Shown: in pieces, positions 13,102 through 37,131 of the stretch
Numbering within the stretch: the first letter of the stretch is position 1
Layout: every line of letters starts with the position of its first letter
Source of the DNA: a virus
IMG/VR virus record: IMGVR_UViG_3300048546_000558
Location: 1-47,249 of that record
Strand: one strand, 5' to 3'
DNA length: 47,249 nt
Made by a program: the position numbers and the translations under genes
The notes under the pieces: generated by a model
The model's database searches: none
Told to the model about the DNA's origin: nothing
What the model saw: the letters and a program-made list of their open reading frames with translations, nothing else

Positions 13102-13109
13102 TATTTATG
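13102..13109 (-). promoter_or_regulatory. Late-type promoter element (CATAAATA)
   Basis: Seven of eight bases of TATAAATA on the minus strand, about 50 bases before the ATG of the 248-residue protein and overlapping the stop codon of the preceding gene. Confidence 0.5.
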
Positions 13110-16010: not shown

Positions 16011-16018
16011 TATTTATT
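16011..16018 (-). promoter_or_regulatory. Late-type promoter element (AATAAATA)
   Basis: Seven of eight bases of TATAAATA, about 25 bases before the ATG of Cys-rich paralogue B. Confidence 0.45.
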
Positions 16019-19000
16019 ACGATCCTGCGACCGTTACAACTGTTGCAATTTTCCCGTCTGTTGAATAAGTTACAGTAACATCTTTAATTGTACCGTTTGC
16101 AGATGTTTCTCTATAACCTGTTATATTCTCTCCAGTGTACACAACATTACTATATGTTACACTTTCATGCGTTACACCTGTAATCTCGCCACTTGCATTT
16201 CTGTTGAGATTTCCTATATCAAATGCTTTTGTAAGTACTGCATTATTTGCCGCGCCAATTGCGATAGTTGTTTTGTTATCAACATATGTTTTAACAGCTT
16301 GCTCTGTTGGAACCGCTGTATTACTATTACCAGTTAATGCACCATCAGCACTAAATTCGTTAATGCTTTCACCTAACTGAGCACCAATACTACCAAGTCT
16401 CAAACTTGTAAGACCTGCTAGGTCAAATGCACTAGCATCCAATGTAGCTCTACCAGTTGATTGGTCAACTCTAAAGTAATTACCTACTCTAAAGTTACCG
16501 TCTTGGTCTGTACTTACAAAGTAAACACGACCTGGATATAGCTCTGTAACTTCTTGTCCTTGTGCCGCAGGAGTTGTTGGCTCTCCAGGGTAATTAGTTG
16601 AAGCTCTTCCGCCTGTACCAATACTCAAAAAGTCGTGTCCTGTTAAGCGTGTTTGACTATACTTGTATCTAATATTAAATCGTTGTCCATAGTATGTGCC
16701 GCTAGTGTTTGGCTTTTCTGTAGCAATAGTAACCACACATGAACCTAATATCCAAGGATCATTGCTTGGGGCATATCCTGATACGCCAGTAACAATATAA
16801 CTTACTCCATCTGCACCAGTGTTTAGTACATTAGCTCTGTCAACATTATCTGTAGGATTATATACTGGACCTGTTATAAATTCAATACTCGAGCCTGGTC
16901 TTGGTTCTTCACTAAGTCCAGCTAGTACAAGACTAAATCCATGTTGTCCCATATTTGCATCTATCGAAGCAGTTGTTGCAAACTGTCCGTCTTGTGCAGT
17001 AATTGTTGCACCATTGGCAATTGTCGATGTTGTATAGTAAGGTCCACTAAATCGTTCCCAATATGTGTCAGCTGTACTATGTTGTGTAGTTGTATTGTAC
17101 ACAATAGTTGGTTTACTACTTGCTGAAGTATTAATACTGTTAGCTACTGCACTAACGAATGTGTGTACATATTGATTTGCTAGGGGTGAAGCACCAACAT
17201 TTACTGTAATTGTAGTTGATGATACTGCAATAATTTTTACAAATACCTTTGTGAGAGCAGGGTCAGTTGATCTTGGGTATGTATGATTTGTTGCATTTGA
17301 ATCTGAATCACAAGTCATTGTAATACTATCTTGTGCAATTTCTACATTGTGTCCTACTGCTAACGGATGAGTACCGATAGTTAGAACACAAACACCATTT
17401 GCTGGATCGTATGTTGCATCTGTAGCTGTATAACCAGTGCCGCCGCCCATTCCTGGATGAACTTTACATACTGAATAAAGTTTTCCGGATGAAGGAACTG
17501 CTCCTATAACTCTAACCTCTCTGGCTGTAGCCGTCGCAAAACCTGTTTCATAAGCATTTAAGCCACTTTGTAAAACACCATCTAACCAATACTCTACACA
17601 TTGACCGGTAAGTCCTGTTGCCGCATCTTTAGTTCCGTTAAATTCTACGCCGCCGTTGTGTACGCCGTCTTGTGTTTCACTAAAATAAAGCGGATGTCCT
17701 ATATTAGTAGCATCGTTTTGTTCAAATGTATACATTCTATGTTTTGTATCCATTTGAAAACTTCCAAGCTCTTGTCCATCAAATACATATCGATTTCCTT
17801 CGCCGTAGTTTGCAACACTTACTTTGATAGTACGTCCTACATAACCTTTTCTAGTTTTATTAATAACTAGTCTATGATTTGTTGCTGGTTGAATATTTGT
17901 TTGGATATTAGCAATTTCAGCTTTTGTTTCTTTAAAGTGTATAAAATTAGCTCCAGTTAATGCAGTACCTGTTAATACTCTTTCAGCAGTACCGCCACTT
18001 GAATAAGCACTATATCCAGTACCGTCAACACTAGTTGTAAGTCCAGCATCACTGTATAGTTCTACTGTGTTTGCTGTTACATTATTTGCATAATAATCGT
18101 TGCCGTTAAGTTGTGTCATACCAACTACGCCTGTTACTGCTTGAACCACCTGTCCGTTTGAATATCCATGTCCAGTCATTGTTATAACTACAGGATTAGC
18201 ACGAGTAGCATCAGTGATTGTTTCAGTAACAATACCCCAACCATTAATTGATCTACTATCTACATAGTTTGTCATGTCTGGATTTGAACATACTCTAAAA
18301 GTTGTTGTGTCAACTACATCTGCATACCAAGGTCTGTTGTACATGCTTGCTGTACCATGACTGCCCAGTGTTTGTTGCCATGCATTAGGGGTAACATCTT
18401 TAAATGCAATTTCGTCACCTTCAGTTAGTCCATGCGGGCCGCCTAGTGTAGCTGTACCATCACTAGTATATGCAGTAAATGCAGAAGTGTCATCAATACT
18501 GAATGAATCAGCATCTATAACTGTAATTGTATAACTATTTCCGTTTACTTCTGTCATACCAACTACACCTGCAAAACTAATTGATTGGTTTGTTGAAAAT
18601 CCATGAGCTGTAGCTGTAACAACACCCGGATTAGCCGCTGTTATACCTGTAACAGTTGCGTCTTTTTGTGTTGTAAGTGTCATTTGTTGTGTATTTGATA
18701 GTGAAGTAATTACTCCGCTTGTAGTTGTTGTTCCACCAAATGTAAGTGTATCTCCAACTGTAAATCCATCTGTGGTGTTGAGTGTAGTGGCATCATATGT
18801 TATTGTATCTCCGTAGAAAAAACCATCTACTGGTTTTTCATTTGCATCATATCCAGCACTAATAGAACCGTATCTACCATAACTGTTGTTTCCGTTCAAT
18901 GCACGAATCTTACCGCCGCCTGTTGTGGCATATCCATAATCATTATAGTAAGTAAAGCAAGAAACAATTTCACTCAATCCATTGTCTTTTACCCAAAATC

Positions 19001-20765
19001 CTATGCCGCCATCGTGTACTTGTGTAAATGTGTGAAACACCATACTGCCCGCTGTGCCTGTGGCAACAACTGATCCATCAACAACAGCACCAACACCTCC
19101 TGTTGAGAAAGCACTTGATTCTTTGATGTAAGGTGATTTAAGTATTGTAGAACCTGGTTCTAGTCTAAAGTAAACACCTTTAATTGTTGCGGCTGTTACA
19201 TCGCCTGGAGTATTAATAGCAAAGCCTGTTAATCCTTTAAGGTTCAAACCCTCAATCATTGTACCAGTGTTCACATAGAACATTGTTTCTTCTTCGTTAG
19301 GTACACCGTTGTCTCCATTACCAGCCGCTGGTTGAATAATACAGTTACGCTGTCCGTCACCAACAATACTTGTATTTGGTGGAATATGAATTGGAAGAAC
19401 TTCGCTGTAAGTTCCGTCTTTGATAAAAATCGTAGCTGGTGTTCTGTTTACTACGTCTGCATTAATATAATCACATGCATATCTAACACTAGCAAATGCA
19501 TAGTCAATAGCCGCACCGTGATTTACATCATCAGCACTACTAGTTGAGTCTTCACTAACATAATAAATTTTGTCATTTTCACCACTAAACTGCCAACTGT
19601 ATGTAGCACCATCTGGTGTTTGTAGATACTTACCTGCATTACCTGCTGTATTTGGAAGCACATAACTAGCACCTGCAACAAATTCACTCCAGTAATTGTT
19701 TGTGTTCAAGTCTATAAAGAAGTCTGCGCCGGCTGTGTGATCTATTAAACAAATATATGTACTAACACTACTCTTTACAATATCATCTTTAACATAGGCT
19801 GTACCTGTAGTCCAGTTACCCATATAGCGTATACCACTATTAAATTTTTGCCATTTGCCTGCGCCTAAATCAGTTGCAAAAGTTCCTGATGTATGTCCAA
19901 TAAGAACAATATATGAATTACCACCATAGGATACAACATCATTGATAGCATAATCAACGGCTGTTGCCCAAGCACCTCTACTGTTTACACCAGTTGAAAA
20001 TTCATCCCAATCACTTGGATTTAGATCTGGCTGTCTATTACTATTATCTTGTTTTGCCGCATATACATTACCGCCGTATCTAACTGTTTCTCCAATTAAG
20101 TACGGTGTTGTACTATCCCATACGCCTCTAAATTTGTTTCCTGTACTAAACAAATCCCAAAAATTTCCATCTGTTGGAAGATTGCCTGTACTGTTAGCTA
20201 AACAACGATAAATGTTTGCACCGTATGCAACTAAGTCGCCGGGTGTATATGCAACTGCCGCATTGTATACACCTTCTGCACTAATACCTTCAACAAATTT
20301 ATCCCAATATATACTTTGAGTAGGTAAATTTCCTGTTGTATCTTGTTTAGCAATATAGACTTGCGATCCATATTTTACAAGGTCATTTTTTTGATAGGCA
20401 AGAGCAATATCAAAATTACCTTCCCATTGCAAACCATCAGCAAATTGGCTCCAGTATGTTGCGTTGGGAGGTGTATTTCCTTGTGTATCTAATACACAAA
20501 TATATACTTTACCGCCATGTGTTATACCATCACCAACACGATACTGTGTTGCGTTGTCATATACATCTCTAAACTTAAAGCCTTCTATCATTAAGGTCCA
20601 GTATGCAGTAGTAGTCGGTATATTACCTGTTGTTTTAACTACGTTAGCATATACATAAACGTTACCACCGTATTTCACAACGTCATTAAGTTCATATTCG
20701 GTTGTGGCGTCATACTCGCCTGCGAAATGAAATCTAAGTTTTCCAAGGTCTAAAATTGTAGCCAT
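16017..20765 (-). CDS. Large tail fibre/virion protein with seven N-terminal repeats and a cupredoxin-like domain
   Basis: The largest protein here (1582 residues). Residues ~9-365 are seven ~50-residue repeats of the form Y-x-x-x-D-x-V-x-Y-G-x-x-x-Y, then G-N-x-P and a Trp before an aromatic end, reminiscent of small carbohydrate-binding (CBM5/12-like) modules. Residues ~410-560 look like a right-handed beta-helix start (YAFASVRYACDYINADVV, then TIFIKDGTYSEVLP). A cupredoxin-like segment follows at ~1000-1110: His1024 in GHPLYF and Cys1100, His1103, Met1106 in CKVHPGM. The C-terminus (DGNFRVGNYFRVDQSTGRA) resembles conserved ends of marine myovirus fibre proteins. It is the likely long receptor-binding structure; receptor unknown. 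Confidence 0.75.
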   Translation of the reverse strand: MATILDLGKLRFHFAGEYDATTEYELNDVVKYGGNVYVYANVVKTTGNIPTTTAYWTLMIEGFKFRDVYDNATQYRVGDGITHGGKVYICVLDTQGNTPPNATYWSQFADGLQWEGNFDIALAYQKNDLVKYGSQVYIAKQDTTGNLPTQSIYWDKFVEGISAEGVYNAAVAYTPGDLVAYGANIYRCLANSTGNLPTDGNFWDLFSTGNKFRGVWDSTTPYLIGETVRYGGNVYAAKQDNSNRQPDLNPSDWDEFSTGVNSRGAWATAVDYAINDVVSYGGNSYIVLIGHTSGTFATDLGAGKWQKFNSGIRYMGNWTTGTAYVKDDIVKSSVSTYICLIDHTAGADFFIDLNTNNYWSEFVAGASYVLPNTAGNAGKYLQTPDGATYSWQFSGENDKIYYVSEDSTSSADDVNHGAAIDYAFASVRYACDYINADVVNRTPATIFIKDGTYSEVLPIHIPPNTSIVGDGQRNCIIQPAAGNGDNGVPNEEETMFYVNTGTMIEGLNLKGLTGFAINTPGDVTAATIKGVYFRLEPGSTILKSPYIKESSAFSTGGVGAVVDGSVVATGTAGSMVFHTFTQVHDGGIGFWVKDNGLSEIVSCFTYYNDYGYATTGGGKIRALNGNNSYGRYGSISAGYDANEKPVDGFFYGDTITYDATTLNTTDGFTVGDTLTFGGTTTTSGVITSLSNTQQMTLTTQKDATVTGITAANPGVVTATAHGFSTNQSISFAGVVGMTEVNGNSYTITVIDADSFSIDDTSAFTAYTSDGTATLGGPHGLTEGDEIAFKDVTPNAWQQTLGSHGTASMYNRPWYADVVDTTTFRVCSNPDMTNYVDSRSINGWGIVTETITDATRANPVVITMTGHGYSNGQVVQAVTGVVGMTQLNGNDYYANNVTANTVELYSDAGLTTSVDGTGYSAYSSGGTAERVLTGTALTGANFIHFKETKAEIANIQTNIQPATNHRLVINKTRKGYVGRTIKVSVANYGEGNRYVFDGQELGSFQMDTKHRMYTFEQNDATNIGHPLYFSETQDGVHNGGVEFNGTKDAATGLTGQCVEYWLDGVLQSGLNAYETGFATATAREVRVIGAVPSSGKLYSVCKVHPGMGGGTGYTATDATYDPANGVCVLTIGTHPLAVGHNVEIAQDSITMTCDSDSNATNHTYPRSTDPALTKVFVKIIAVSSTTITVNVGASPLANQYVHTFVSAVANSINTSASSKPTIVYNTTTQHSTADTYWERFSGPYYTTSTIANGATITAQDGQFATTASIDANMGQHGFSLVLAGLSEEPRPGSSIEFITGPVYNPTDNVDRANVLNTGADGVSYIVTGVSGYAPSNDPWILGSCVVTIATEKPNTSGTYYGQRFNIRYKYSQTRLTGHDFLSIGTGGRASTNYPGEPTTPAAQGQEVTELYPGRVYFVSTDQDGNFRVGNYFRVDQSTGRATLDASAFDLAGLTSLRLGSIGAQLGESINEFSADGALTGNSNTAVPTEQAVKTYVDNKTTIAIGAANNAVLTKAFDIGNLNRNASGEITGVTHESVTYSNVVYTGENITGYRETSANGTIKDVTVTYSTDGKIATVVTVAGS
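19674..20741 (-). repeat. Seven tandem ~50-residue protein repeats (fibre N-terminus)
   Basis: Within the 1582-residue protein, seven consecutive units share Y-x3-(D/G)-x-(V/I)-x-(Y/H)-(G/S)-x3-Y near the middle and W-x-x-(F/M) at the end. Units begin near FHFAGEYD, FRDVYD, WEGNFD, AEGVYN, FRGVWD, SRGAWA and YMGNWT. Units 5 to 7 are more divergent. Confidence 0.8.
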
Positions 20766-20797
20766 TTATTGCGTCCTGTCTCTGAATTTATTAATTA

Positions 20798-20805
20798 TAT
20801 TTATG
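20798..20805 (-). promoter_or_regulatory. Late-type promoter element (CATAAATA)
   Basis: Seven of eight bases of the T4 late element, 33 bases before the ATG of the 1582-residue fibre gene. The same variant precedes the gene at 12307-13053. Confidence 0.5.
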
Positions 20806-20812
20806 CCAGTGT

Positions 20813-21088
20813 TCATGATAAAAACTTCATCCTTAAATGACCTTTATTATCAATATCAAATTCAATAGCATCAATACTCCAGAAGTGTTGTTTGTAAGCA
20901 TTAGGGTCGGTTATTGGGTAAATGTTGTCTGGTAATGCGATAGGAGTATCGTCATTAGCATCAATAACTTCCACTGTCAAATCTCCTGTTAGATTGTCTA
21001 ATTTAAATCCATAAAATGTTTTATCACCGTACTGTGTTCCTTCGTATATTCCACCCGTACTATCTGTTCTTGAATCGTTAATGCTCAT
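20813..21088 (-). CDS. Small putative virion protein
   Basis: A 91-residue protein with no family I recognise: MSINDSRTDSTGG at the start, a beta-rich middle (LTGDLTVEVIDANDD) and an end IEFDIDNKGHLRMKFLS. It is separated by one base from the upstream 108-residue gene and is co-transcribed with it. Its size and position between fibre genes suggest a minor fibre subunit, collar or chaperone. Confidence 0.55.
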   Translation of the reverse strand: MSINDSRTDSTGGIYEGTQYGDKTFYGFKLDNLTGDLTVEVIDANDDTPIALPDNIYPITDPNAYKQHFWSIDAIEFDIDNKGHLRMKFLS

Positions 21089-21089
21089 A

Positions 21090-21416
21090 TTATATTGCCT
21101 GGTCTAATAAACTCACTGTCACAGTGAAAGCACTAGCTCTGTCTGCTTTAACCTTTAAAGCATCTCCATTTAGTAAGTATATTTTATTTTGAGATACTAA
21201 ATCCACTGTTTCATTTGGAAAAATTTTACGTTTGTGAGCTACATGAGTCACAGTTGTATCAGCATGTACTATTTCTAATGTAATAGGCATTGCACTGCCT
21301 TCAATATTTGTAATATATGCACTATGCAAAAAATGTTGTCCTGCACCACAAGTTACAAGAGTTGTGCCTGTAGTGGTATTGATAGTGTCTGTTTTATATG
21401 TAGTAAATGAAGCCAT
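21090..21416 (-). CDS. Small putative virion protein, beta-rich
   Basis: A 108-residue protein predicted to be nearly all beta: TDTINTTTGTTLVTCGAGQH, then ITNIEGSAMPITLEIVHAD and a KVKADRASAFTVTVSLL end. The pattern resembles small phage proteins of immunoglobulin-like or decoration type, but I cannot name a family. It is coupled to the 91-residue gene (one base apart) and preceded by an AATAAATA element. Confidence 0.55.
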   Translation of the reverse strand: MASFTTYKTDTINTTTGTTLVTCGAGQHFLHSAYITNIEGSAMPITLEIVHADTTVTHVAHKRKIFPNETVDLVSQNKIYLLNGDALKVKADRASAFTVTVSLLDQAI

Positions 21417-21437
21417 GTTCTTCCTTGTCTATATACT

Positions 21438-21445
21438 TATTTATT
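21438..21445 (-). promoter_or_regulatory. Late-type promoter element (AATAAATA)
   Basis: Seven of eight bases of TATAAATA about 22 bases upstream of the 108-residue gene, overlapping the stop codon of the preceding gene. Confidence 0.45.
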
Positions 21446-22139
21446 AAAAATCCAACAAGGCAAACAACCCACTTCCACCGCCACCACCACCTCCGCTTGG
21501 AGTGCCTGGTTCAAATCTACTATTTGCTAAACTATATACTAAAACTTGTCCGTCTGCAACTCCAGTAGTATCAACATCATTGAGATCTCCTACATTTTTT
21601 GCCGCAAATGATGTATCAAATTCTGCTTGACTAAAGCTATCTCCGGGTACAAATTTAGCGCCGTCCCACACAATAGTTTGTCCATTTGTAGGAGCATTTG
21701 TAGTTGTATCAACATCTGTCAGATCATCTATGCTCATACCTACGATAGTAGCTCTTAACGGTTTGTTCATCTGCCATTCGTCATTGGCACTATCATATGT
21801 GAATGTTGCTACACCGTCGGTGCCTAAGTCTGCTGTTAGCCCAGCCCCATCTGCCGCCGCGGCATTTGTAGCTCCTTTAGCTACAGTAATATTAAGATCA
21901 TCAACATCTAATGTTGTGCTATTGATAGTAGTTGTTATACCGTCTACTTGCAAGTTACCTTTAACTTGTAATAGACCTGTGTTATCACCTATGCCAGCTG
22001 GATCGATAATGAATGTACTCGGACCTCTGAGTTCACCTGTTAGTGTAATATTGTTTGAAATTTCTGTATCACCATTGGCAGGATTATGGTCTACATTATT
22101 TGCAAAACTACCTAATTCAAAATTCTTACTTGTCGCCAT
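21444..22139 (-). CDS. Tail-fibre-type structural protein (short mosaic member)
   Basis: A 231-residue fibre protein that is essentially a shortened paralogue of the middle of the 507-residue protein at 28739-30262. Shared segments are LQVDGITTTINSTTLDVDDL, NITVAKGATNAAAADGAG and a DVDTTG(V/I)ADGQ-type repeat with F(E/D)PG ends. It ends in a short Gly-rich segment (PSGGGGGGGSG) before FALLDF. Beta-rich repeats with interspersed Gly fit a trimeric fibre. Function inferred from shared modules and location. Confidence 0.65.
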   Translation of the reverse strand: MATSKNFELGSFANNVDHNPANGDTEISNNITLTGELRGPSTFIIDPAGIGDNTGLLQVKGNLQVDGITTTINSTTLDVDDLNITVAKGATNAAAADGAGLTADLGTDGVATFTYDSANDEWQMNKPLRATIVGMSIDDLTDVDTTTNAPTNGQTIVWDGAKFVPGDSFSQAEFDTSFAAKNVGDLNDVDTTGVADGQVLVYSLANSRFEPGTPSGGGGGGGSGLFALLDF

Positions 22140-22164
22140 ACATATACCCTATTCTGGTTACATA

Positions 22165-22172
22165 TATTTATT
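22165..22172 (-). promoter_or_regulatory. Late-type promoter element (AATAAATA)
   Basis: Seven of eight bases of TATAAATA about 26 bases before the ATG of the 231-residue fibre gene. Confidence 0.45.
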
Positions 22173-22176
22173 GTCT

Positions 22177-24198
22177 TTATGTCCAGAATTTTCCGATTGC
22201 ATAGAAGATGTAATCTCCGCTAGCCAGAGATGAAGTCGTAGAAAATCCGTTTGTCAGAGGATCAATTAGGTTTGAGTTTGTCTGTGAGGCATTTGATTGC
22301 ATCTCCAAATACGGTTCGGTGCCTGAGCCTAGACCTCTTTCAGTATCCCAAAAATACCAGCCGCCACTACTTGATGCTCTTTTAATTAAAATAAATGCAC
22401 CTTCCGTGGTATCAAAACCACAATCAACAGTTCTAGCTGATGAGTATTGTGTAAACGAACCTATTTTGGATACTCCTGGACAGCTAGCAAATAGATAACC
22501 AACATAATTAACTGTATTATTTGTGGTGTTATCTGCTAGGTTTATACTAGTAGATGTAAGATTAGTAAAGTTTGTAGCATTACTGGAGCCTGACGTTTCT
22601 AAATTAAAACGCTTTGATGGATAATCTTTATGATAAACTACCCAACCATTGTCACCTGTATTCTCACGAGCTTTTATCCAAATCATGTCTGGTGCAACAC
22701 CAAGATTATGATTTAATACCCTGTTACCAACACCCGTTCCTTTATAAGTCACAACATCAAAGAAGCCAGGAGCACGTTTCCACATCCAAGCAAAATCATT
22801 ACTATTATTTCCTGGACTACCGTGCCAGTCTTTTTGATTATCCCAAACAAAATCACTGTCAGCATAGTATGGGTCTGTGCTATCAGTTCTACCTCTTGTT
22901 GCGCCGGTAAGCCTTGACCCAATATGAGGATCACTTGTATTATCAGACTCGCGAGTAATTGCCATATCCACAGGTCCTACCAAACTTCGAAATCTAAACC
23001 CACTAGCGTAACTACTAGAGGCGGTTACTCTAAACACGTCTGGAGTGAAGGTCGTAAAAGTCATTGGGCTACGTCTGATCGCCATGTAGATTATATCACC
23101 AGTGCTTGCAATATTATTTCCATAAACTATGAAGCCTGTAGGTGTAAGATCAACACCAAAAGTATTGACATTCTCTGCACCATCGGTATTAGGAAATAGT
23201 GCGGCATCTCCATCTCCACTCAAACCGCCTGTTACAATTCCACGCATACAATCAAAAATGTACCAATTATTACTTTGGTTTACTGCTTTAAGTAATATCC
23301 ATTGAGGTTCAAAACCTAAGTTAACTTCTGCGCCAGAATAGTTGTGGGTATAACTCCCACACTTGATAATATCAGCATCACCACTAGGGCCGAACCCACC
23401 GTCGCCGTCGTTGTGAGCAAATATGTAAGCTACATACTCCCATGTATTTAGATTAGCTTCATAACCTACAGTAATATTAGTACTTGAAGTTCCTTGTACA
23501 TAACTGCCTTGTGTATAAGCACCATTGGTACTACCCCAATCAAATGCTGATCCTGTATAGGTAGTTCCGGTATCTCTTGTTCCGCTATTCGCATCTAAAG
23601 CCATTTGTTTACCAGAAGATGAAGTATTTGCTCCAAAGCTTCTGTGCCATGTCCACCAACTAGTACCGGCAGTATTAGTTGATTTTATAATAACCATTCC
23701 TGGATCACAATCCAAGTTATGAGATAAAACCTGTTGTGAATTTGAATCTCCAGTATATTTCACAATATCAAAGAATTTTGGCGACTTTCTAAATGCCCAA
23801 GAGATGTAGGTACTTGACCAAGTTGGTCCGGCATTTACTGCACCATTACTACCGATGGTAAATCCATTATTGTTGAAAGAAGTTAGAGCATTCACTTCAT
23901 TGCTAGATGGATCAGTGGTATTTGTTTTTAATCTCGTAGACGTAGTACCGTTTATATTAGCAGTTTCAGTGTCAAAAAGGTAATGATCGGAACTTGTGTC
24001 TCTTCTTTTTATCCACAACAAGCCACCTTCACCATCGAAGTCAACGCCGTTTGTAATCGTTCGAGTGTAGCCCCAGCCATGATACAAATGTGATGAAAAA
24101 AGACTTTCAGCAGATTCGCCAGGGCCACCACCGGTGAGCTTACTGATTCCGCCAAATCCTCTTACACTACCTGCTCCGAATGTGCTTAATAATGGCAT
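22177..24198 (-). CDS. Phage tail/adhesin protein with five internal repeats (DUF7483-like)
   Basis: A 673-residue protein with five copies of a segment in which a beta-strand pair leads into (I/L)-K and then an aromatic (W/Y)-x-(W/F/V)-(W/F/Y)-(D/H). The copies are GGLLWIKRRD, PGMVIIKSTN, PQWILLKAVN, PDMIWIKARE and GAFILIKRAS. Between them run WAFRKSPKFFDIVKYTG and WMWKRAPGFFDVVTYKG, each followed by HNL. The layout is common in marine phage tail proteins and recalls the uncharacterised domain DUF7483, though I cannot search for it. The first residues, MPLLSTFGAGSVRGFGG, resemble the start of the 465-residue glycine-rich protein and may be an attachment peptide. Probably a receptor-binding or decorating protein. 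Confidence 0.65.
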   Translation of the reverse strand: MPLLSTFGAGSVRGFGGISKLTGGGPGESAESLFSSHLYHGWGYTRTITNGVDFDGEGGLLWIKRRDTSSDHYLFDTETANINGTTSTRLKTNTTDPSSNEVNALTSFNNNGFTIGSNGAVNAGPTWSSTYISWAFRKSPKFFDIVKYTGDSNSQQVLSHNLDCDPGMVIIKSTNTAGTSWWTWHRSFGANTSSSGKQMALDANSGTRDTGTTYTGSAFDWGSTNGAYTQGSYVQGTSSTNITVGYEANLNTWEYVAYIFAHNDGDGGFGPSGDADIIKCGSYTHNYSGAEVNLGFEPQWILLKAVNQSNNWYIFDCMRGIVTGGLSGDGDAALFPNTDGAENVNTFGVDLTPTGFIVYGNNIASTGDIIYMAIRRSPMTFTTFTPDVFRVTASSSYASGFRFRSLVGPVDMAITRESDNTSDPHIGSRLTGATRGRTDSTDPYYADSDFVWDNQKDWHGSPGNNSNDFAWMWKRAPGFFDVVTYKGTGVGNRVLNHNLGVAPDMIWIKARENTGDNGWVVYHKDYPSKRFNLETSGSSNATNFTNLTSTSINLADNTTNNTVNYVGYLFASCPGVSKIGSFTQYSSARTVDCGFDTTEGAFILIKRASSSGGWYFWDTERGLGSGTEPYLEMQSNASQTNSNLIDPLTNGFSTTSSLASGDYIFYAIGKFWT

Positions 24199-24208
24199 TT
24201 TTTATTCC

Positions 24209-25462: not shown

Positions 25463-25485
25463 TTAACGTGTCCATCTGCTATACA

Positions 25486-25493
25486 TATTTAGT
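25486..25493 (-). promoter_or_regulatory. Weak late-type element (ACTAAATA)
   Basis: Six of eight bases of TATAAATA about 24 bases before the 417-residue fibre gene. The same octamer occurs before the 897-residue fibre gene, which raises the chance that it is used. Confidence 0.35.
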
Positions 25494-25496
25494 GTG

Positions 25497-26894: not shown

Positions 26895-26900
26895 ATATCC

Positions 26901-28742
26901 TTACGCAAATTGTGTAAATGTTCCAAAAACTTCAAATGCCGCTGACCCTGTTTTTATTATGCTAAAAGTGTACCAATCTGTACTATTAGCATTACCAGCA
27001 CTTGGTGCAGAGCCGCCGGACCACTGTGGTGTAACTGTGGTACCGTCAATTTGTACAAGGTTTATATAATAAGGTGTAGATCCATTTTGAAATGATACTG
27101 CTACTGTTTTAGCTTGACCAGTGGAGAGGCTATTGTTCAATGTAGTGCTACTATCGCCACCTATAAACAGTGTTCTATTATTCAGTTGATCTACATTCAA
27201 TCTTAAAATTTGATAATTGTTAGCATAAAAAGTAATGGTACCAGAATTGGTATTTGTTGTGTCTGTCTCTTCTATTACCGATCCTACAAATTGACTAGAT
27301 GTTCCTGCGCCTGCTCCACCTGCTGTAAATAAAGATACCCAAGAACCATTTTCAGCAACAAACGCTTTGTTTAAATCACTATCGTATACTAAATCGCCGT
27401 CTGCCATTGTAATGGCATTTCTATTTGTTGTTGATACGTTGTACAATCTTAATGGACTTTGACTAACATGTACTCTGCTACTAGTTGCGGCTTCTAATGT
27501 AATACTACTAGCACTTGTTAACACAGGCGCACCTGCTTGGCTACTAGTAATTGAACCAGTAATCGAAATATTACCTGTACCTGAAATATCATTACTGTTT
27601 AGATCTAAGTCGCCGCCTAGTTGCGGTGTAGTATCATCTACTACGTTGCCGCCAGATCCAATTTCATTATATGTAGTTCCGTCGTTTGTAAATTCCCATT
27701 TATCACTAGCTTCATTCCATCTGATATCAACGTTTGAACTAGTTCCACGTTCTATTTCTAAGCCTGCATTTTGATTTGGAGTTCCAGTTACATCATTGTT
27801 AAGCACTACAATGTTATCACTTATATTGAGTGTTGCTGTGTTTATTGTTGTTGTCGTACCATTTACTGTTAAATTTCCTGTCAATGTTAAGTTATCATTT
27901 ATTACAACACTTGCTCCACTACTACTGATTATACTTCCACTAAAAGATATATCGCCTGTTGCGGCATTACCAATGATTTTAATAATACCTTTCATACTAC
28001 TGTGTGCATTACAATAGTAGTATAATTCATCTGGTGCATCCATTGTTGGCGTAAAAGTTACTGTACCTGTTCCATTGTTGTTTGTAACACCGGTATTGTA
28101 TAATGTACCGCCTGCACTGTTTACACTTTGTATTCTAAAAGGGTGACTAACAGCAATATTTGCAAAATTATACTGTGTACCTCTTGTCAAATATAATGTT
28201 GGATTACTTGTGGTGCTATTAAAGAAATTAGATCCAGAATCACTGAATCTATAATTAGGAGATGAACTTCCGGTTAAACTAAAAGTATAAGCAACACTGT
28301 TTCCATTAACATCTAAATCGCCGCCTAGTTGTGGACTAGCATCATCAATAAGATCGTTCATGCTTCCACCACCGCCACTGCTGATAGTAATTGTTTTAGT
28401 TGCTCCTGTACCGCTAGCTGTAACACCTGTGCCAACAAAGTTAAGTGTGGTTGCATCAGTTGTAAGCGTCGAACCTTCATCTTGAATTGTTAATGTGCTT
28501 CCTGCAGAACTTGTTACCCACTTAAAACTTGTTGTAGCATGGTCATATGCCAATACTCTTCCATCATCACTTGCTGTTACAGCATTAACATCTTGTATGT
28601 CTTGTAAATGTACATCTGTAATAGTACCACTTGCTGTCAAATCAGTAGTCTGAATCATATTTGCTACATACTTGACTCCACCGCTGTGTGAATAGTCTTC
28701 TCCTGCAAATTGAAAATCTGCTTTATCTCTTACTCTACTCAT
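26901..28742 (-). CDS. Mosaic tail-fibre protein with a cupredoxin-like domain
   Basis: A 613-residue fibre protein. Residues ~78-125 are the LTIQDEGSTLTTDATTLNFVG module. Residues ~150-258 form a cupredoxin-like domain with His200 (SHPFRI) and Cys244/His247/Met250 (YYYCNAHSSMKG), all four type-1 copper ligands. Later come two copies of (D/S)PQLGGDLD and an SSQAGAPVLTSASS segment shared with the 275-residue fibre. The end is homologous to that of the 417-residue fibre. It overlaps the 507-residue gene upstream by 4 bases. Structural role inferred; copper binding is a prediction from ligand pattern. Confidence 0.7.
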   Translation of the reverse strand: MSRVRDKADFQFAGEDYSHSGGVKYVANMIQTTDLTASGTITDVHLQDIQDVNAVTASDDGRVLAYDHATTSFKWVTSSAGSTLTIQDEGSTLTTDATTLNFVGTGVTASGTGATKTITISSGGGGSMNDLIDDASPQLGGDLDVNGNSVAYTFSLTGSSSPNYRFSDSGSNFFNSTTSNPTLYLTRGTQYNFANIAVSHPFRIQSVNSAGGTLYNTGVTNNNGTGTVTFTPTMDAPDELYYYCNAHSSMKGIIKIIGNAATGDISFSGSIISSSGASVVINDNLTLTGNLTVNGTTTTINTATLNISDNIVVLNNDVTGTPNQNAGLEIERGTSSNVDIRWNEASDKWEFTNDGTTYNEIGSGGNVVDDTTPQLGGDLDLNSNDISGTGNISITGSITSSQAGAPVLTSASSITLEAATSSRVHVSQSPLRLYNVSTTNRNAITMADGDLVYDSDLNKAFVAENGSWVSLFTAGGAGAGTSSQFVGSVIEETDTTNTNSGTITFYANNYQILRLNVDQLNNRTLFIGGDSSTTLNNSLSTGQAKTVAVSFQNGSTPYYINLVQIDGTTVTPQWSGGSAPSAGNANSTDWYTFSIIKTGSAAFEVFGTFTQFA

Positions 28743-30262: not shown

Positions 30263-30271
30263 GTTATTACA

Positions 30272-32965
30272 TTATGCTCCTGTGCCACTGTTTAGTGCTT
30301 TTACTAGTGTTGCTAATCTGTCAACTGCTTCTTCAATAGTTGTTGGTGCAGTACCGTTCCAGTTGCTAGCTGGGTTTGGTGTATAACTAATAGTTGGAGC
30401 AACTGTACTTACTGCCGTAACATGACCTTCTGCATCAATAGTAACTACTGGTATAAGTGTAGATGATCCGTAAGCACCGGCAGTTACTCCGCTATTACCT
30501 TTGTGTACATTAGCACTGTTTATTTGTGTTGCACCTGTTGTATAATCTATTGTAAATTTGTTTAATCCTGCGCCAAATGCAAAATTACCATTTGAACCAA
30601 TTTGCATACGCTGTGTTCCAGCTGTATAAAAATCTATTTCATCTTCGTCAGAACCAGAACTAGATTCAAATACAATTTTAGTATCACCGTCACTGTCTTG
30701 TGGAATTTCTCCTGCTAAACTATCCCATATGGATCCGTTATAAACTTCTGCTTTAGTTGTGCTACTGTTAAAACGCAACATACCTGTTGAAGGTGTTGGT
30801 CTTTGTGCAGTTGTTCCGTTTGGTAACTGTATTGATCCTGTTGTGCCTATGTTAAGTGTAGTTCCATCAAATGTAAAGTTTGCATCATCTTCAATTACTC
30901 CACTAGCACCAGCAATAAGCACTCTGTTGTTTGTTAAATTATTTCCTTGTAAACTAGTAGCTTGTAAATTGCCTGATCCGTCGATACTAATTAATGTATG
31001 ATTTGTTAAACCTAATACAGGCAACGTGATAGCATTTATTTCGCCAGTTACAATAATGTCAATCTGAGAGCCGTTATTGGGTGTTCCTACAAATGTTACT
31101 ACACCGCCTGTTTCAGTATAGTCATTTGTATCCTGCATTAATACACCGTTTAAAAATACCATACTAACAGTACCATCACCTACATTTGCATCAAATGCTT
31201 GTGTGGATCCATTTGCAGTAAAGTTTACTGGGATAAAGCCTGTGTCAGCACCACTAACAACAGATACCCATTCACCGCCTGTGTATACATAAAGTTCAGC
31301 AGTAGTACCAGTGTCAAACCAAAGGTCGCCTGCGTTAATACCTATTGTTGGTGCATTGGTTTGATAGTATGCTGTTCCGCTACCACTAGCAATAGTTTGA
31401 AATGTTACATTACCAAATGCATCTGTTACTGGTACTTGTCCGTCTGTACCTCTAGTAGATGGTAATTTATAAAATGTATTTGTACTAACATCACCAATAA
31501 TAAACTTCCCGTCAACATCTATTCTTGCACGTTCTGTTCCAGCTGTGGTAAAGCGTATTTTATCTTCATCTGCAATAGCTTCTACTTTTATATGTGTGTC
31601 AGCATCTGCGTCTACAATAGCATCTGTATCTGATCCAACTATTGTAATTGTTTTTACTGCACCTGTGCCACTAGCTGTAACTCCATCACCAACAAAATTA
31701 AGTGTTGTAGCGGCTGTGGATAAGGCGCCGCCTTCTTCTTGTATAAAAATTTGACCACCAACTGTTGACCACTGATAATCTGTGCCATCATATATTAGTG
31801 CTTGTCCTGCACTTGCTGTGGATACTCTTATATGAGTATCAACATCTGCATCAGTATATCCGGCATTGCTTACCCAGTCATAATCTGTTCCGTCCCAACT
31901 AAGTACTTCTCCAACTGCGGCTGTTGCAACATTTAAATGTGTATCAACTGCGGCATCATCATAACCGCTTACACTTACATCAAATCTTACTAAATCATTG
32001 TTAGGATCTGTAGTAATTGTAATACCATTACCAGCTTGAAATGTTAATGTATCTGCTACATTATCTGCAATAATATTATTTTGTCCGCTTACTGCAATTT
32101 TATCAAATAAGTTTTGTGCAGATCCACCACCGCCACCTACTGTTGAAATTGTAATTTCGTCTGATGTAGCGTTTGTAGCAATACTAATTCCTGTACCGGC
32201 TACAAGTGTAAGTTCATCACTATCACTATCAGCTACTACATCTGCTGAACCGTTTACTTTAATAGTACTAAATGTATTTGGTGTTGCGCCTACTAATACC
32301 CAAGAATTGCCATCATATACTTCTGCTTTACTGCTAGTTGTACTAAAACGTAGCATACCAGTTTGAGCAGGATCATTGCCTTGTACAGTACCTGGTCTTT
32401 GTGCATCTGTACCTTGAGGAAGAATAAATGCTTCTGTACTAGAACCAGCGTCTAGCGTACCTCCCATAAAAATGTTTTTCCATTTTTTAGTAGCACTACC
32501 TAAATTGTATGTGATATCTAAATTAGGAAGTAAACTGTTATTAAAATCGCTGTTGATATTAATGCCGTCTGTGTCTGCATCACCTATAGTGATATCACCA
32601 CCTATACTAACATTACCTTTTAGTACTGTGTCACCTTCGACTGTAAACTTACCAGTGTTATCAATACTAACACGTTCTGTTCCGCCTGTAAAAAACTTTA
32701 TGGTATCATTATCTAGCGGATTATCAACTTCAATATATGTATCTTGGTCAGCATCAATAACACCGCCAAGTTGTGTCCAACTATTTCCGTTGTATCCTTC
32801 GAATCTGTTTAATTGTGTGTTAAATCTAATTTGCCCAGTAGCAGATGCTCCGGGTCGTTGAGCAGTATTACCAACGGGAATTCTAATACTTCCGTTAGTA
32901 TTAATATTAAGTGTACCACTATTGGTGGTAATTCTATCTTTCTGATGATCTAAATTTAGTGCCAT
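30272..32965 (-). CDS. Large mosaic tail-fibre protein
   Basis: An 897-residue fibre protein. Three copies of a short unit A-Q-R-P-x(6-12)-G-(Q/M)-(I/L)-R-F-x(6)-(F/A)-E-(G/V)-Y-(N/D)-G are present: QIRFNTQLNRFEGYNG, MLRFSTTSSKAEVYDG and MLRFNSSTTKAEVYNG. Several DADTHI(K/R)V repeats and the IFIQEEGGALSTAATTLNFVG module follow in the middle. The C-terminus is VDRLATLVKALNSGTGA, a likely coiled coil. An ACTAAATA element lies upstream. Function as long or proximal fibre is inferred from composition and place. Confidence 0.68.
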   Translation of the reverse strand: MALNLDHQKDRITTNSGTLNINTNGSIRIPVGNTAQRPGASATGQIRFNTQLNRFEGYNGNSWTQLGGVIDADQDTYIEVDNPLDNDTIKFFTGGTERVSIDNTGKFTVEGDTVLKGNVSIGGDITIGDADTDGININSDFNNSLLPNLDITYNLGSATKKWKNIFMGGTLDAGSSTEAFILPQGTDAQRPGTVQGNDPAQTGMLRFSTTSSKAEVYDGNSWVLVGATPNTFSTIKVNGSADVVADSDSDELTLVAGTGISIATNATSDEITISTVGGGGGSAQNLFDKIAVSGQNNIIADNVADTLTFQAGNGITITTDPNNDLVRFDVSVSGYDDAAVDTHLNVATAAVGEVLSWDGTDYDWVSNAGYTDADVDTHIRVSTASAGQALIYDGTDYQWSTVGGQIFIQEEGGALSTAATTLNFVGDGVTASGTGAVKTITIVGSDTDAIVDADADTHIKVEAIADEDKIRFTTAGTERARIDVDGKFIIGDVSTNTFYKLPSTRGTDGQVPVTDAFGNVTFQTIASGSGTAYYQTNAPTIGINAGDLWFDTGTTAELYVYTGGEWVSVVSGADTGFIPVNFTANGSTQAFDANVGDGTVSMVFLNGVLMQDTNDYTETGGVVTFVGTPNNGSQIDIIVTGEINAITLPVLGLTNHTLISIDGSGNLQATSLQGNNLTNNRVLIAGASGVIEDDANFTFDGTTLNIGTTGSIQLPNGTTAQRPTPSTGMLRFNSSTTKAEVYNGSIWDSLAGEIPQDSDGDTKIVFESSSGSDEDEIDFYTAGTQRMQIGSNGNFAFGAGLNKFTIDYTTGATQINSANVHKGNSGVTAGAYGSSTLIPVVTIDAEGHVTAVSTVAPTISYTPNPASNWNGTAPTTIEEAVDRLATLVKALNSGTGA

Positions 32966-32990
32966 TCATGTCTCTCACAACTGTTTTATA

Positions 32991-32998
32991 TATTTAGT
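32991..32998 (-). promoter_or_regulatory. Weak late-type element (ACTAAATA)
   Basis: Six of eight bases of TATAAATA about 26 bases before the 897-residue fibre gene, overlapping the heme oxygenase stop codon. Confidence 0.35.
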
Positions 32999-33527
32999 TG
33001 TTTGAGACCGACATTTGTTGGAAAAGCTCAGTAGCAAAGTCAAAGCAAATTTTAGCTTCATCTGCCATACTGTCATCTAATTTTGTACGAATTCTATCTT
33101 TGAGTACACTGACTTCTTCGTCAAACTGATACATAGTTCCTTTGCCGGGTGTGCGTTTAGCAATCATTTGTCCGCCACTTAGATCTCCCATATGTCGCAC
33201 ATATATGTGTGCCATAAGTTTATCAGGATCTTCTTTGATAGTTAATAAGTGAGCCAAGTATTTTTCGACAACAGGATACATTGTAGGTGTATAGTCTGTT
33301 AATTTAGTTTCTAATTCTAATATATCAACATGTATTTTTGGAGCAATAATTACATCAGTTAGTTTATGTAGTCTTGCAAAATTTTCTAATACATTATATT
33401 GCGGATGTTGATTGTGTAAGAAGTCGCAGTAACGCTCAATACTAATTCCGCCCATTAGTTCTTTCACAAAATCTTGCCGTTCAGCATTTTTGTGATGTTC
33501 CCAAGTTAGTTCTTTAAGATTACTCAT
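32994..33527 (-). CDS. ho1: Heme oxygenase, compact
   Basis: A 177-residue HO-1-family protein. His12 in EHHKNAE is the proximal heme ligand by alignment to the H-x-x-A-E pattern, and residues 114-120 read GDLSGGQ, the distal helix signature, within AHIYVRHMGDLSGG. HO uses O2 and seven electrons to open heme to biliverdin IX-alpha, Fe(II) and CO; ferredoxin is the usual donor in bacteria. Cyanobacterial and many phage HOs are about 230-240 residues, so this is a short form lacking C-terminal sequence, yet the catalytic core is complete. With the PcyX-like reductase and ALAS on the other strand it completes a heme-to-bilin route. It has its own sigma70-like promoter and stands between a radical SAM gene and the fibre genes. 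Confidence 0.9.
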   Translation of the reverse strand: MSNLKELTWEHHKNAERQDFVKELMGGISIERYCDFLHNQHPQYNVLENFARLHKLTDVIIAPKIHVDILELETKLTDYTPTMYPVVEKYLAHLLTIKEDPDKLMAHIYVRHMGDLSGGQMIAKRTPGKGTMYQFDEEVSVLKDRIRTKLDDSMADEAKICFDFATELFQQMSVSNN

Positions 33528-33532
33528 ACTTT

Positions 33533-33560
33533 AATGTAGCACACTTCTTAGATTTGTCAA
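33533..33560 (-). promoter_or_regulatory. Sigma70-like promoter of the heme oxygenase gene
   Basis: TTGACA at 33560-33555, 16 bases, then TACATT at 33538-33533, preceded by TGC. The first twelve bases are identical to the GT9-gene promoter. The predicted start lies within a few bases of the ATG, so the mRNA may be nearly leaderless. Confidence 0.6.
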
Positions 33561-33575
33561 TAGATCTTTCCATTT

Positions 33576-34715
33576 TTAGTTGTTTAAACTGTGATAGATC
33601 ATTTGGATCTTTTCCATTTCTAGCCACCATGGTTCAAACTCTGGTCTTATGTCTAATATGTTTTGCTTTCTAATTTTATCTAAATTAGTTGTAAACCTAT
33701 AAAACAGTTCTTGTTCCTTTGGATCTTTTTTGCCTGCTAAAAATTGACTAGGCAAAACTGTTCTTGGATCTAGGTGTAGAGGTTTTGAAACATAACTCCA
33801 AGTATATTGAATATTGCGTTTAGGTTTATGTTGTTCATTTACTTTTTCTATAAACTTCAGACCAAGAGGATGTTGATTGTAATTTGCAGGATGTAATGTG
33901 TCTGTTACATCAACACGACCACATGCTTGCCCTAATTTAATAATATTTTCTTTAATCTGAGGCAACTCATATACTCCGCCTCTAACATATTTGTAGCAAT
34001 CATTTTCCCATGCATCTACACTACACAGTACTTTAAGGCGTGTAAATCTTTTTAGCATTGCTAAAATTTTATCATCAACAAGCGTAGTGTTTGTAATGAT
34101 ACGCATTTGCATATCAGGAACTTCTATAGATAGGAATTCAAGAAACTCTAAAGCATCTTCTTGGTACAAAGGTTCACCACCTGATATTTCAACTGCACCT
34201 AAATTTTTAAACCATTCAATTGGTATTTGTTTAAACCAGTCTGATCCTAATGTTTCGTGAGGGGCAATTTTAACATCTAAACGAGTGTCGCCTTGTAATG
34301 CCTTATTCATTTTTTGTTCATCTTTAATCCAACCAGTAGACCTTCTACTTGAACACATTGTACATTTTAAATTACATTTATTGCTAAAGTCAATTTTTAG
34401 AAAGAATTTATTGCCATGGTCAGTTAATCTATTAAGTTTATCTCTTTGACTGCCTGAATGCCTTTCACCTAATCTCTCTTGCATTTTTTCTTCGTCGATA
34501 CAAATACGACATAGCCCATTAGGCAATGGACCTGTTTCTAATTGACTGAACCTGTCGGGCCATTCTTTAGAAAGCACTTCAAATAAATGTTTAGGATTTT
34601 CTATTTGTAATCTATGCTCAGATGGATCACCGGATACACTACAACACACCTGTATTGCCCAGTCTTGTCTAATCCAAACGTGATTCTTACCTGCTTGACA
34701 CCAACGGCGTTCCAT
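33576..34715 (-). CDS. Radical SAM protein, phage type
   Basis: A 379-residue radical SAM enzyme. Cys114, Cys118 and Cys121 form C-x3-C-x2-C in SNKCNLKCTMC for the [4Fe-4S] cluster; ISGGEPLYQ is the SAM-binding GGE motif. The N-terminal 75 residues carry more cysteines (Cys6, Cys24-25, and CRIC at 69-72), which could hold an auxiliary cluster placed before, not after, the core. Related proteins of T4-like marine phages are called twitch-type radical SAM proteins and have no assigned reaction. Neighbours are heme oxygenase (downstream) and a subtilase 7 bases upstream. It is not HemN-like. Peptide or protein modification is possible but only a guess. Confidence 0.85.
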   Translation of the reverse strand: MERRWCQAGKNHVWIRQDWAIQVCCSVSGDPSEHRLQIENPKHLFEVLSKEWPDRFSQLETGPLPNGLCRICIDEEKMQERLGERHSGSQRDKLNRLTDHGNKFFLKIDFSNKCNLKCTMCSSRRSTGWIKDEQKMNKALQGDTRLDVKIAPHETLGSDWFKQIPIEWFKNLGAVEISGGEPLYQEDALEFLEFLSIEVPDMQMRIITNTTLVDDKILAMLKRFTRLKVLCSVDAWENDCYKYVRGGVYELPQIKENIIKLGQACGRVDVTDTLHPANYNQHPLGLKFIEKVNEQHKPKRNIQYTWSYVSKPLHLDPRTVLPSQFLAGKKDPKEQELFYRFTTNLDKIRKQNILDIRPEFEPWWLEMEKIQMIYHSLNN

Positions 34716-34722
34716 TTAGTTG

Positions 34723-37131
34723 TTAATCTCTTTGAATATCAAAACTACCACTAATACCAATACCATTACCTAAGGTAACATCTTTTGCAGTTATTGGTTT
34801 TGTAGTATGACTGTATGTTCCACCTTGATATATAATTCTTGCAGTTGCACCTTGTAATTTATTATAATCAGCATGACCAGTACTTGTTGCAGTAGTATCT
34901 TCTGCACCATCATAAAAATCATTTGTAGTATCTTGGATGTTCAATGTGCTTAACCAAGTTTTAATATCATTTACAGACCAGTTTCTATTAAACTCTATTA
35001 TAGTTCCAATAAGACCTGCCGCAATAGGACATGCCGCACTAGTTCCACTAAATCTTACATCTCTACTGGTACTAGGTGATCCTGATTGTCCATCACTCCA
35101 ACTTGTATTACCAGCTTTACTTACATATGTATTATCAAATCTAGGAATATCAGTACCATATGTTCCCACAGTTGCGGCTAAACTTCCGTCGCCTGGTGAA
35201 AACAAGTCTATATTGTTTCCCATATCACTATAGTTAACTTTTCTTTCTTTTGTACTACTAGCATACTGATCATCTAAACAGCCTACATTAATTACTGGAC
35301 TTGTTCTATTCCCTGACTGTACATTAATTGTACCTTGCATTGCACCGTGGTATTCGCAATTATAATAAAACTGTTCACCTCCTGTGCTTGATGCTGTACG
35401 CTGACTAGGTGTCCAACTTACTGTACCATTTTGTGCTCCTTGTCCTGATGCTTGAGGATATAAAACATAGTTGTTTGTTCCAGTTCCAGCTACACGATTG
35501 ATATAAAAAGGATGTCCGCTAGCATTTACACTAAAGTTTACAGTATCTCCTCTATGAATAGTAATAGTAGGATTGCTTCCACTTACTACTCCGTTTCTAT
35601 CTGTTCCTGTCATAGTATAAGCGCCAGATCCTGAATTACCTACACTAATATTCCATGTTTTAGAATCTCCCCAAGTTGATCCTGCATGTTGTGGGAAGCC
35701 TGCTCTGTTTGTAGTTGGCATAACTTGATATCCAAACTGTGTAATATTAACACCATCGCCAAAATGTCCTGAACTACTAGTATGCCAATAGTTGTCATAG
35801 TCTGGATGATCCCACTTTGTTTGTTTTTGATTACTATTGCCTGACGCAACAACTGTAATAACACCAGCATCCACCATTTCTTTAGCACTTGTAACTATAC
35901 TGTTATCTAAGAATTCACTTTTCATTCTTCCACTATCACCAGTGTCACCTACATAACGCATGAACTGTGGTTTATTACTATCACTGGTATAATAAATGCC
36001 TGCACTAGTTCTATGAAATCCATAACCAACTGAGCCAGGTGTTGCTCTATATCCCCAACTATTTGAACTTATTGTTGGATCTTGTGTTCCGTATTTTGCA
36101 TTAATAGGCTTTGCTTGATGAAATATTTTTTGAACGTCCCATACTCTAGTAAGTCCTAATCCAGTAGTACTATATCCATCAATTACCCATTTGTTAGCAT
36201 TATAAGCCCAACCATGTGTTCTGCCATATATTTGACTAGCACATTGCGTACCATGTGTGGCACTATATGGATTACTATTAAAGTCACCGTGGGCATTATT
36301 CCTAGTATAGTTATTGGGTATTGCTACTGTTCCATAGCTGTTAAATGCGGCACTTCTATTACTTGAATTGCCCCACCAATCTTTAGCCGCAGTTTCCGTT
36401 GGTACTGTAGTTCCATCCCATCGAGTTGTTAATCTACTACCAGGGGAAGCATCAAACCAACTTGGGTCAATATAGTATGGACCGTCAAAAACTACATCTA
36501 AGCAATCACAAATTCCATCTCCAGGTAATACATTACCGCCAATATAATCTGTCGGTGACTCGCCAGCTGGTCTATTATTAATAAACTCTATATGTCCTAT
36601 CCAAGTACCGTTATCCATACATATCATATCAACATCTTGTCCTGTACCATATTTTTTAATATTGGCGTTTACTGTAAGTGCATCACTTGACCAAATGTCT
36701 CTTTTTGCTTTTGGACCATTTTCTCTTGTTGTTCTCAGTAACTGATATCCACATCTTCGCAGATCAGTTGCATCTGGTGTTGAAGGGAAGTCAGCAGTTG
36801 TTGCATATTGATTTCTGTGTTTAACTGGTTCATTGTATCTATATGTTTCTTCTATTGCACAATGCAATTCATCTTCTGGAGGCTGAGGAAACTCGTCTGG
36901 GTAGTCATCTGGATTTTTGTGAATAAAAGCAACTTGTGGATCTTGTTCTAAATCTGCCGCTTCTTCTTCACTTAACCAAAACACGCCTCTAGTAGGACTG
37001 TGTAGTATGTCATCAGTTTGTTCTACTTCTCTTGCTACATAAGTTGGATCATCTGCATCACGCAAACTAGCATCTAATGCATCATATTGTTCTTTAGTAT
37101 GTGTACCTAAATGATAATGAAATTCTGCCAT
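34723..37131 (-). CDS. Subtilisin-like (S8) serine peptidase with an inserted cupredoxin-like domain
   Basis: An 802-residue subtilase. The full catalytic set is visible: Asp173 (CMDNGTW), His293 (THGTQCAS), Asn432 (ASGNSN) and Ser698 (SGTSAACP). The first ~105 residues, with LSEEEAADLEQDP before the first strand, resemble an I9-type propeptide. Between Asn432 and Ser698 a ~105-residue insert (about 500-605) looks like a cupredoxin: TITIHRGDTVNFSVN, His540 in HPFYI and Cys592/His595/Met598 in CEYHGAM, the spacing of amicyanin. It is related to the subtilase at 45-1811 but keeps the Asp. Likely a virion protein. Upstream lies the 275-residue fibre gene, 9 bases away. Confidence 0.85.
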   Translation of the reverse strand: MAEFHYHLGTHTKEQYDALDASLRDADDPTYVAREVEQTDDILHSPTRGVFWLSEEEAADLEQDPQVAFIHKNPDDYPDEFPQPPEDELHCAIEETYRYNEPVKHRNQYATTADFPSTPDATDLRRCGYQLLRTTRENGPKAKRDIWSSDALTVNANIKKYGTGQDVDMICMDNGTWIGHIEFINNRPAGESPTDYIGGNVLPGDGICDCLDVVFDGPYYIDPSWFDASPGSRLTTRWDGTTVPTETAAKDWWGNSSNRSAAFNSYGTVAIPNNYTRNNAHGDFNSNPYSATHGTQCASQIYGRTHGWAYNANKWVIDGYSTTGLGLTRVWDVQKIFHQAKPINAKYGTQDPTISSNSWGYRATPGSVGYGFHRTSAGIYYTSDSNKPQFMRYVGDTGDSGRMKSEFLDNSIVTSAKEMVDAGVITVVASGNSNQKQTKWDHPDYDNYWHTSSSGHFGDGVNITQFGYQVMPTTNRAGFPQHAGSTWGDSKTWNISVGNSGSGAYTMTGTDRNGVVSGSNPTITIHRGDTVNFSVNASGHPFYINRVAGTGTNNYVLYPQASGQGAQNGTVSWTPSQRTASSTGGEQFYYNCEYHGAMQGTINVQSGNRTSPVINVGCLDDQYASSTKERKVNYSDMGNNIDLFSPGDGSLAATVGTYGTDIPRFDNTYVSKAGNTSWSDGQSGSPSTSRDVRFSGTSAACPIAAGLIGTIIEFNRNWSVNDIKTWLSTLNIQDTTNDFYDGAEDTTATSTGHADYNKLQGATARIIYQGGTYSHTTKPITAKDVTLGNGIGISGSFDIQRD

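Follow-up and report, generated by a model that had tools for sequence, protein, structure and literature searches.

The 47,249-nucleotide stretch of marine phage DNA analysed here (IMG/VR record IMGVR_UViG_3300048546_000558, positions 1 to 47,249; hereafter the window) encodes three proteins, an 802-residue subtilase, a 613-residue tail protein and a 1582-residue tail fibre, in each of which one segment is best explained as a genuine cupredoxin domain with a full set of type-1 copper ligands, the three together representing a metal-binding module of the virion. Taken as a whole, this explanation is probably correct. From the conservation of their residues, the domains very probably hold functional sites of the type-1 copper type within a module that is mobile among virion proteins.

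An earlier note on this DNA had pointed to these three proteins and to a loop of identical spacing in each, and its residue numbers and spacing proved exact on re-examination, with all four type-1 copper ligands (His followed by Cys-xn-His-xn-Met) present by position in all three domains. Domain 1 spans residues 495-607 (35311..35649, minus strand) of the subtilase (Peptidase_S8, PF00082, E 1.7e-12; 34723..37131, minus strand), where the first ligand is His540 (35512..35514), which is retained jointly with the loop ligands in intact relatives, and the loop is Cys592-x2-His595-x2-Met598 (35338..35358). Domain 2 (27966..28286, minus strand) lies in the 613-residue protein (26901..28742, minus strand; phrog_677 and phrog_5906), with His200 (28143..28145) and the loop Cys244-x2-His247-x2-Met250 (27993..28013). 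Domain 3 (17412..17828, minus strand) belongs to a diverged branch with an inserted helix-containing segment and is carried by the 1582-residue fibre (16017..20765, minus strand; matched by Pfam and by the tail fiber family phrog_9851, E 2.5e-215), with His1024 (17694..17696), invariant in the 13-sequence alignment A3, and the loop Cys1100-x2-His1103-x2-Met1106 (17448..17468). The same fibre also shows five CBM_5_12 carbohydrate-binding matches toward its N-terminal side and two E1_FCCH-like matches.

Among the 33 open reading frames of the window that were examined, exactly three C-x2-H-x2-M loops are found, one in each of these proteins and all downstream of an HP[FL] motif. When each window protein was shuffled in 2000 trials, the mean number of proteins with the C..H..M pattern was 0.1, three or more were seen in none of the trials, and the pattern together with HP[FL] placed 35-80 residues upstream appeared in 0.05% of them. 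Profiles made from relatives, run on the window, likewise recover exactly three domains, which are the same three that carry the motif.

The fold assignment is best supported for domain 1, which was modelled with AlphaFold2 from an alignment (A1) of this domain and 31 relatives, an alignment too diverse to serve as a scanning profile, to give a pLDDT of 90.5 and a pTM of 0.84. Foldseek places rusticyanin first (E 8.8e-5), followed by nitrite reductase, plastocyanin, amicyanin and pseudoazurin, and VIA-align superposes the model on the cupredoxin domain of Hyphomicrobium nitrite reductase (HdNiR) with Z 10.5 and 1.8 Å over 88 residues. The comparison with known copper proteins that the earlier note had proposed thus returns cupredoxins, plastocyanin and amicyanin among them. 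Strand positions in the model are also cupredoxin-like, the His standing just before a strand, the Cys ending the next-to-last strand and the Met just preceding the last. Sequence searches of the PDB with single proteins gave nothing significant; with the family profile, the best matches were nitrite reductase (which has the same CxxHxxM spacing), plastocyanin and rusticyanin, aligned Cys on Cys with weak E-values. These predicted features support placing domain 1 in the cupredoxin superfamily fold.

For domains 2 and 3, assignment as cupredoxins is supported through homology, by sequence for domain 2 and by profile, with a weaker structural match, for domain 3. Domains 1 and 2 find each other in reciprocal phmmer searches (E about 1e-6), and domain 2 is included in A1. 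Residues 45-257 of the 613-residue protein align to positions 180-409 of the 412 in the phrog_677 profile (E 6.3e-33), a match to one region of what is a longer protein; domain 2 thus resembles the C-terminal domain of this family, which is annotated as a 'baseplate wedge tail fiber protein connector'. Domain 3 falls in a second branch (alignments A3 and A5) that has a longer middle than the first, and comparison of this branch with the family of domains 1 and 2 by hhalign gives 99.3% and E 1.6e-20. A search for relatives with domain 3 alone returned none; those used here came from phage records and from searches with other queries.

The domain is widespread in marine phages, with 340 phage records matching one query, nearly all of them from Synechococcus, Prochlorococcus or other cyanophages and mostly in proteins annotated as gp9 'baseplate wedge tail fiber connector'. 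In marine T4-like cyanophages, the gene adjoining the gp9-like gene (T4-GC 398) is T4-GC 399, which carries the second branch, and the domain is also present in tail fibres of Melnitz (OM43 phages) and of Mosig and Baldr (SAR11 phages). All 16 isolates searched with the first-branch profile have one to four copies each, these isolates having been picked for having a match. The virion-protein setting of the domain is shown by annotation; as a refinement of the earlier note, its carriers are not confined to fibres and include the gp9-like baseplate connector family. Two cyanophages with described virions may be mentioned in this context: S-SM1, in whose virion Sullivan and co-workers report 41 proteins (PMC3037559), and S-CREM2, whose virion proteome is published and in which the domain is absent from the baseplate region, the part checked.

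The evidence that these are metal sites comes mainly from the pattern in which the ligands are kept or lost among relatives. The four ligand columns were masked before the search models were built, so that hits are independent of the ligand residues, and the domains were grouped into clusters (76 under 80% identity in the first branch, 93 in the second). In the first branch, 71 of 76 clusters have His, Cys, His and Met (in two of these the His lies slightly further on, owing to alignment shifts), five have lost both His and the Cys together, and none shows a partial loss. Structural columns (Tyr, Gly, Phe and Pro) are mostly kept in the five degenerate copies, one of which, L054, is 67% identical to an intact copy. 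On the best tree of the 76 domains four site changes are required; however, a history in which the five degenerate copies arose only once is not rejected (p-AU 0.325), and independent losses in this branch are therefore counted cautiously.

A similar picture is seen in the second branch, where 68 of the 93 clusters read HCHM, one reads HCHQ, with an axial Gln as in stellacyanin, one is an alignment shift and 23 are without the Cys. One of these 23 is L054 again, three still have a His at a ligand position although the rest of the site is gone, and most represent one lineage within the T4-GC 399 protein, in which a cupredoxin without a site stands in tandem with intact ones; this lineage is separate from the degenerate copies of the first branch. 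With the exception of the one alignment shift, no cluster that keeps the Cys lacks a His, and apparent losses of the first His (motifs SCHM, TCHM and FCHM) were set aside as alignment shifts, the His being present nearby. Proteins of the T4-GC 399 type (L185:4661-5053, plus strand, and similar) also include some in which an HCHQ copy, as in stellacyanin, is accompanied by a ligand-free one. The earlier note had reasoned that free loss of Cys or His among homologues would speak against metal binding; with masked profiles the outcome was in favour of the note, since the ligands are retained together or lost together and not singly.

These observations bear directly on an alternative in which the beta-sandwich serves as a structural or adhesive module that needs no metal, and the ligands persist by descent or for packing. 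Copies without ligands are indeed maintained, including the whole T4-GC 399 lineage mentioned above and the loci L054, L060, L063 and L064, and the Met is retained in four of the five degenerate first-branch copies, where it may have a partly structural role. Neutral persistence, however, predicts partial losses of the kind missing from the first branch, and the His, Cys and His columns of that branch are conserved as strongly as the best structural columns and yet disappear together, which is the behaviour of a metal site, since packing residues would be expected to go one at a time. Moreover, the ligand Cys is the only Cys in all eight of the isolate gp9-like proteins analysed, as is Cys244 over the whole length of the 613-residue window protein, which excludes an intrachain disulfide in these proteins, and a lone Cys in an otherwise Cys-free protein is unlikely to be kept without a function. 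A fold maintained for its own sake is accordingly an unlikely explanation of the family. The earlier claim of selection for metal binding beyond a beta-sandwich is upheld insofar as the ligands behave in an all-or-none manner, and is to be qualified in that the site is dispensable in some copies, where the fold alone is usable.

Several points nevertheless weigh against a metal-binding cupredoxin module. Conserved copies that have lost the site keep the fold, which means that the fold is useful without metal. The curated family models are not reached: domain 1 has no match to PF00127 (plastocyanin/azurin), to which weak matches below the gathering score come from five of 32 relatives (best E 0.002); the amicyanin model TIGR02657 is weakly matched by seven of 32 (best E 0.00032), under its curated cut-off; and among the NCBIfam copper-protein models only plastocyanin matches domain 1, with 14.8 bits where the cut-off is 87.85. 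The residue that follows the first His is Asn in amicyanin, plastocyanin and azurin, where it helps to tune the copper site, and in the phage domain it is Pro, so that the electronic properties may differ. The model of domain 3 is of moderate quality (pLDDT 81), VIA ranks cupredoxins best for it but with Z no higher than 6.0, and Foldseek gives it weak matches only, with immunoglobulin (Ig) folds ranked first. Copper as the bound metal is putative, and a role in stability or adsorption is conjectural. An Ig-like identity for domain 3 was dismissed as noise on a moderate model, because VIA ranks cupredoxins first and the profile homology is strong. PF25489 (At5g54830-like), the commonest weak match (18 of 32 relatives), was also set aside as uninformative and is below cut-off for the window domain.

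Evidence that the domain is a mobile module has been obtained from the subtilases. Alignment with insert-less subtilases shows domain 1 to interrupt the S8 catalytic domain as an insertion between the regions of the oxyanion Asn432 and the catalytic Ser698, and the same arrangement is found in the subtilases of three other loci (L001, L002 and L004), while in S-CAM4 and S-H9-1 the domain is located at the subtilase C-terminus. It is absent from the P-SSM2 subtilase PSSM2_297 and, by alignment, from a 588-residue subtilase paralogue in the window itself (45..1811, plus strand), which acts as an internal control for the module being optional. Since the domain can be inserted, C-terminal or absent among subtilases, it is regarded as mobile.

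The closest relatives in cells share 40-63% identity with the phage family and are lipoproteins or proteins with a signal peptide (L325-L368) from Flavobacteria, Bdellovibrionales, Rhodanobacteraceae and others, several of which consist of this domain alone, others being fused to CHRD domains. Such an exported state is the normal setting of cupredoxins. L325, L332 and other Flavobacteria loci encode uncharacterised lipoproteins that have CHRD domains and, after them at the C-terminus, a phage-type cupredoxin. In the mechanism proposed here, the phage domains would derive from this exported bacterial family, or share an ancestor with it, and would have moved among gp9-like connectors, the T4-GC 399 protein, tail fibres and virion-type subtilases. 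Each intact copy would most likely bind one copper ion, although the predicted site would probably be empty at first or hold another ion, because the cytosol in which phages assemble holds almost no free copper, and would acquire its copper extracellularly, once the host has lysed. With the ion bound, the beta-sandwich would be locked and would provide baseplate and fibres with a rigid, exposed accessory domain, which may serve adsorption or particle stability.

The same difficulty of copper supply underlies a second alternative, no more probable than a fold kept without metal, in which another ion such as Zn(II) or Cu(I) is taken from the host cytosol at assembly and does no more than lock the structure. 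The cytosol in which phage proteins fold offers little available copper, and binding of Zn(II) and other ions by cupredoxin sites is known from work in vitro; on the other hand, His, Cys, His and Met make up the classical copper set, and the exported bacterial relatives would encounter copper. Considerably less probable is a redox use, with electrons passed or quenched at the virion surface as protection from photo-oxidation or as a redox trigger at the host surface. Type-1 copper sites act as electron-transfer centres in known proteins, and many carrier phages come from sunlit surface water; however, no redox partner was recognised among the neighbouring genes, the copies form part of large structural proteins, and the domain is shared by phages of OM43 and SAR11, hosts that are not oxygenic phototrophs, for which reason a link to photosynthesis was dropped. 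About as improbable is that tail copper is a bait which a receptor for metal uptake on the host recognises, in the manner that the 'Trojan/Ferrojan horse' hypothesis proposes for iron. The T4 fibre tip binds iron through HxH motifs, marine phages carrying such motifs have been described (PMC11705849), and copies of the domain occur in tail fibres as well as in baseplate proteins; however, copper is buried in cupredoxins and not easily passed on, gp9-like proteins are placed in the baseplate and not at the fibre tip, and there is no evidence of a receptor.

A metal-binding cupredoxin module, if it holds copper, would place a classical copper centre in the host-touching machinery of some phages that rank among the most abundant in the ocean, with a virion metal chemistry not yet described for marine phages and a phage-borne pool of bound copper. 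More tentatively, and with the balance of probability somewhat against it, many marine T4-like cyanophages and some SAR11 and OM43 phages could be copper-protein virions, with several centres each, whose stability or infection would depend on copper and whose numbers would make them count among marine copper ligands. If gp9 forms an 18-copy trimer set, as it does in T4, it would contribute some 18 or more copper atoms to each particle. The single Cys of each gp9-like protein offers a directly testable handle on baseplate function, and a widespread domain that has so far been annotated by position only is given a fold name.

Other genes of the window may be noted briefly. A heme oxygenase gene (PF01126, E 2e-18; 32994-33527, minus strand) lies among the tail genes and adjoins a radical SAM gene (33576-34715). 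The T4-type portal (42117-43796, minus strand) has its nearest counterparts (55%) in jumbo phages infecting Pseudomonas (PA5oct-like) and Sinorhizobium and not in cyanophages, unlike several tail genes of the window, which are cyanophage-like. Two adjoining proteins of one family (phrog_35878, function unknown) are encoded at 13105-14511 and 14542-15987 (minus strand) and contain 40 cysteines each. Genes at 9367-11175 (minus strand), 5301-7315 (minus strand) and 7495-8706 (plus strand) encode a carbamoyltransferase, a sugar epimerase, a PfkB kinase/cytidylyltransferase fusion and an aminotransferase, and beside the fibre genes they represent a possible sugar-modification cluster.

That a known kind of domain occurs here in a new, apparently unreported setting is well supported. 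In the open-licence literature no published description of cupredoxin or blue-copper domains in phage tails or virions was found, the papers returned by broader searches dealing, to judge by title and abstract, with unrelated topics; the earlier note had likewise known of no experimental account of copper sites on T4-like fibres. Among phage families, phrog_677, the cyanophage gp9 (T4-GC 398) and T4-GC 399 contain the same cupredoxin with all ligands, a copper-type site that goes unmentioned in the records and open-licence literature searched. The closest published idea to a copper site on phage tails is the 'Trojan/Ferrojan horse' proposal for tail-fibre iron (PMC11705849). The HxH sites found in T4 gp37 and in fibres of marine phages are also tail-fibre metal sites, but they hold octahedral iron between fibre strands, as opposed to the mononuclear site of type-1 copper type within a globular domain that is predicted here.

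Among the copper proteins themselves, the best structural matches of domain 1 are rusticyanin of Acidithiobacillus (PDB 1a8z and others) and the N-terminal cupredoxin domain of HdNiR (2dv6), which share with the phage domain a first His in a G-H-x-F context and a Cys that ends the same strand, followed by His and Met. Rusticyanin differs in its longer Cys-His-Met loop, its N-terminal extension and its role as a soluble electron carrier, whereas the phage domain differs from both in being embedded in virion proteins and in the Pro after its first His. Amicyanin, plastocyanin and azurin (PF00127, TIGR02656 and TIGR02657) have the same four ligands, and the amicyanin loop identified in the earlier note is equal in length to that of the phage domain; the likeness to amicyanin ends with this loop length, as the phage domain stays below the curated cut-offs, has Pro for Asn and is not a free-standing electron carrier. 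The exported bacterial cupredoxin-like proteins share the HPF...YYNCxxHxxM signature with the phage family, but they are proteins of the cell envelope and not of the virion.

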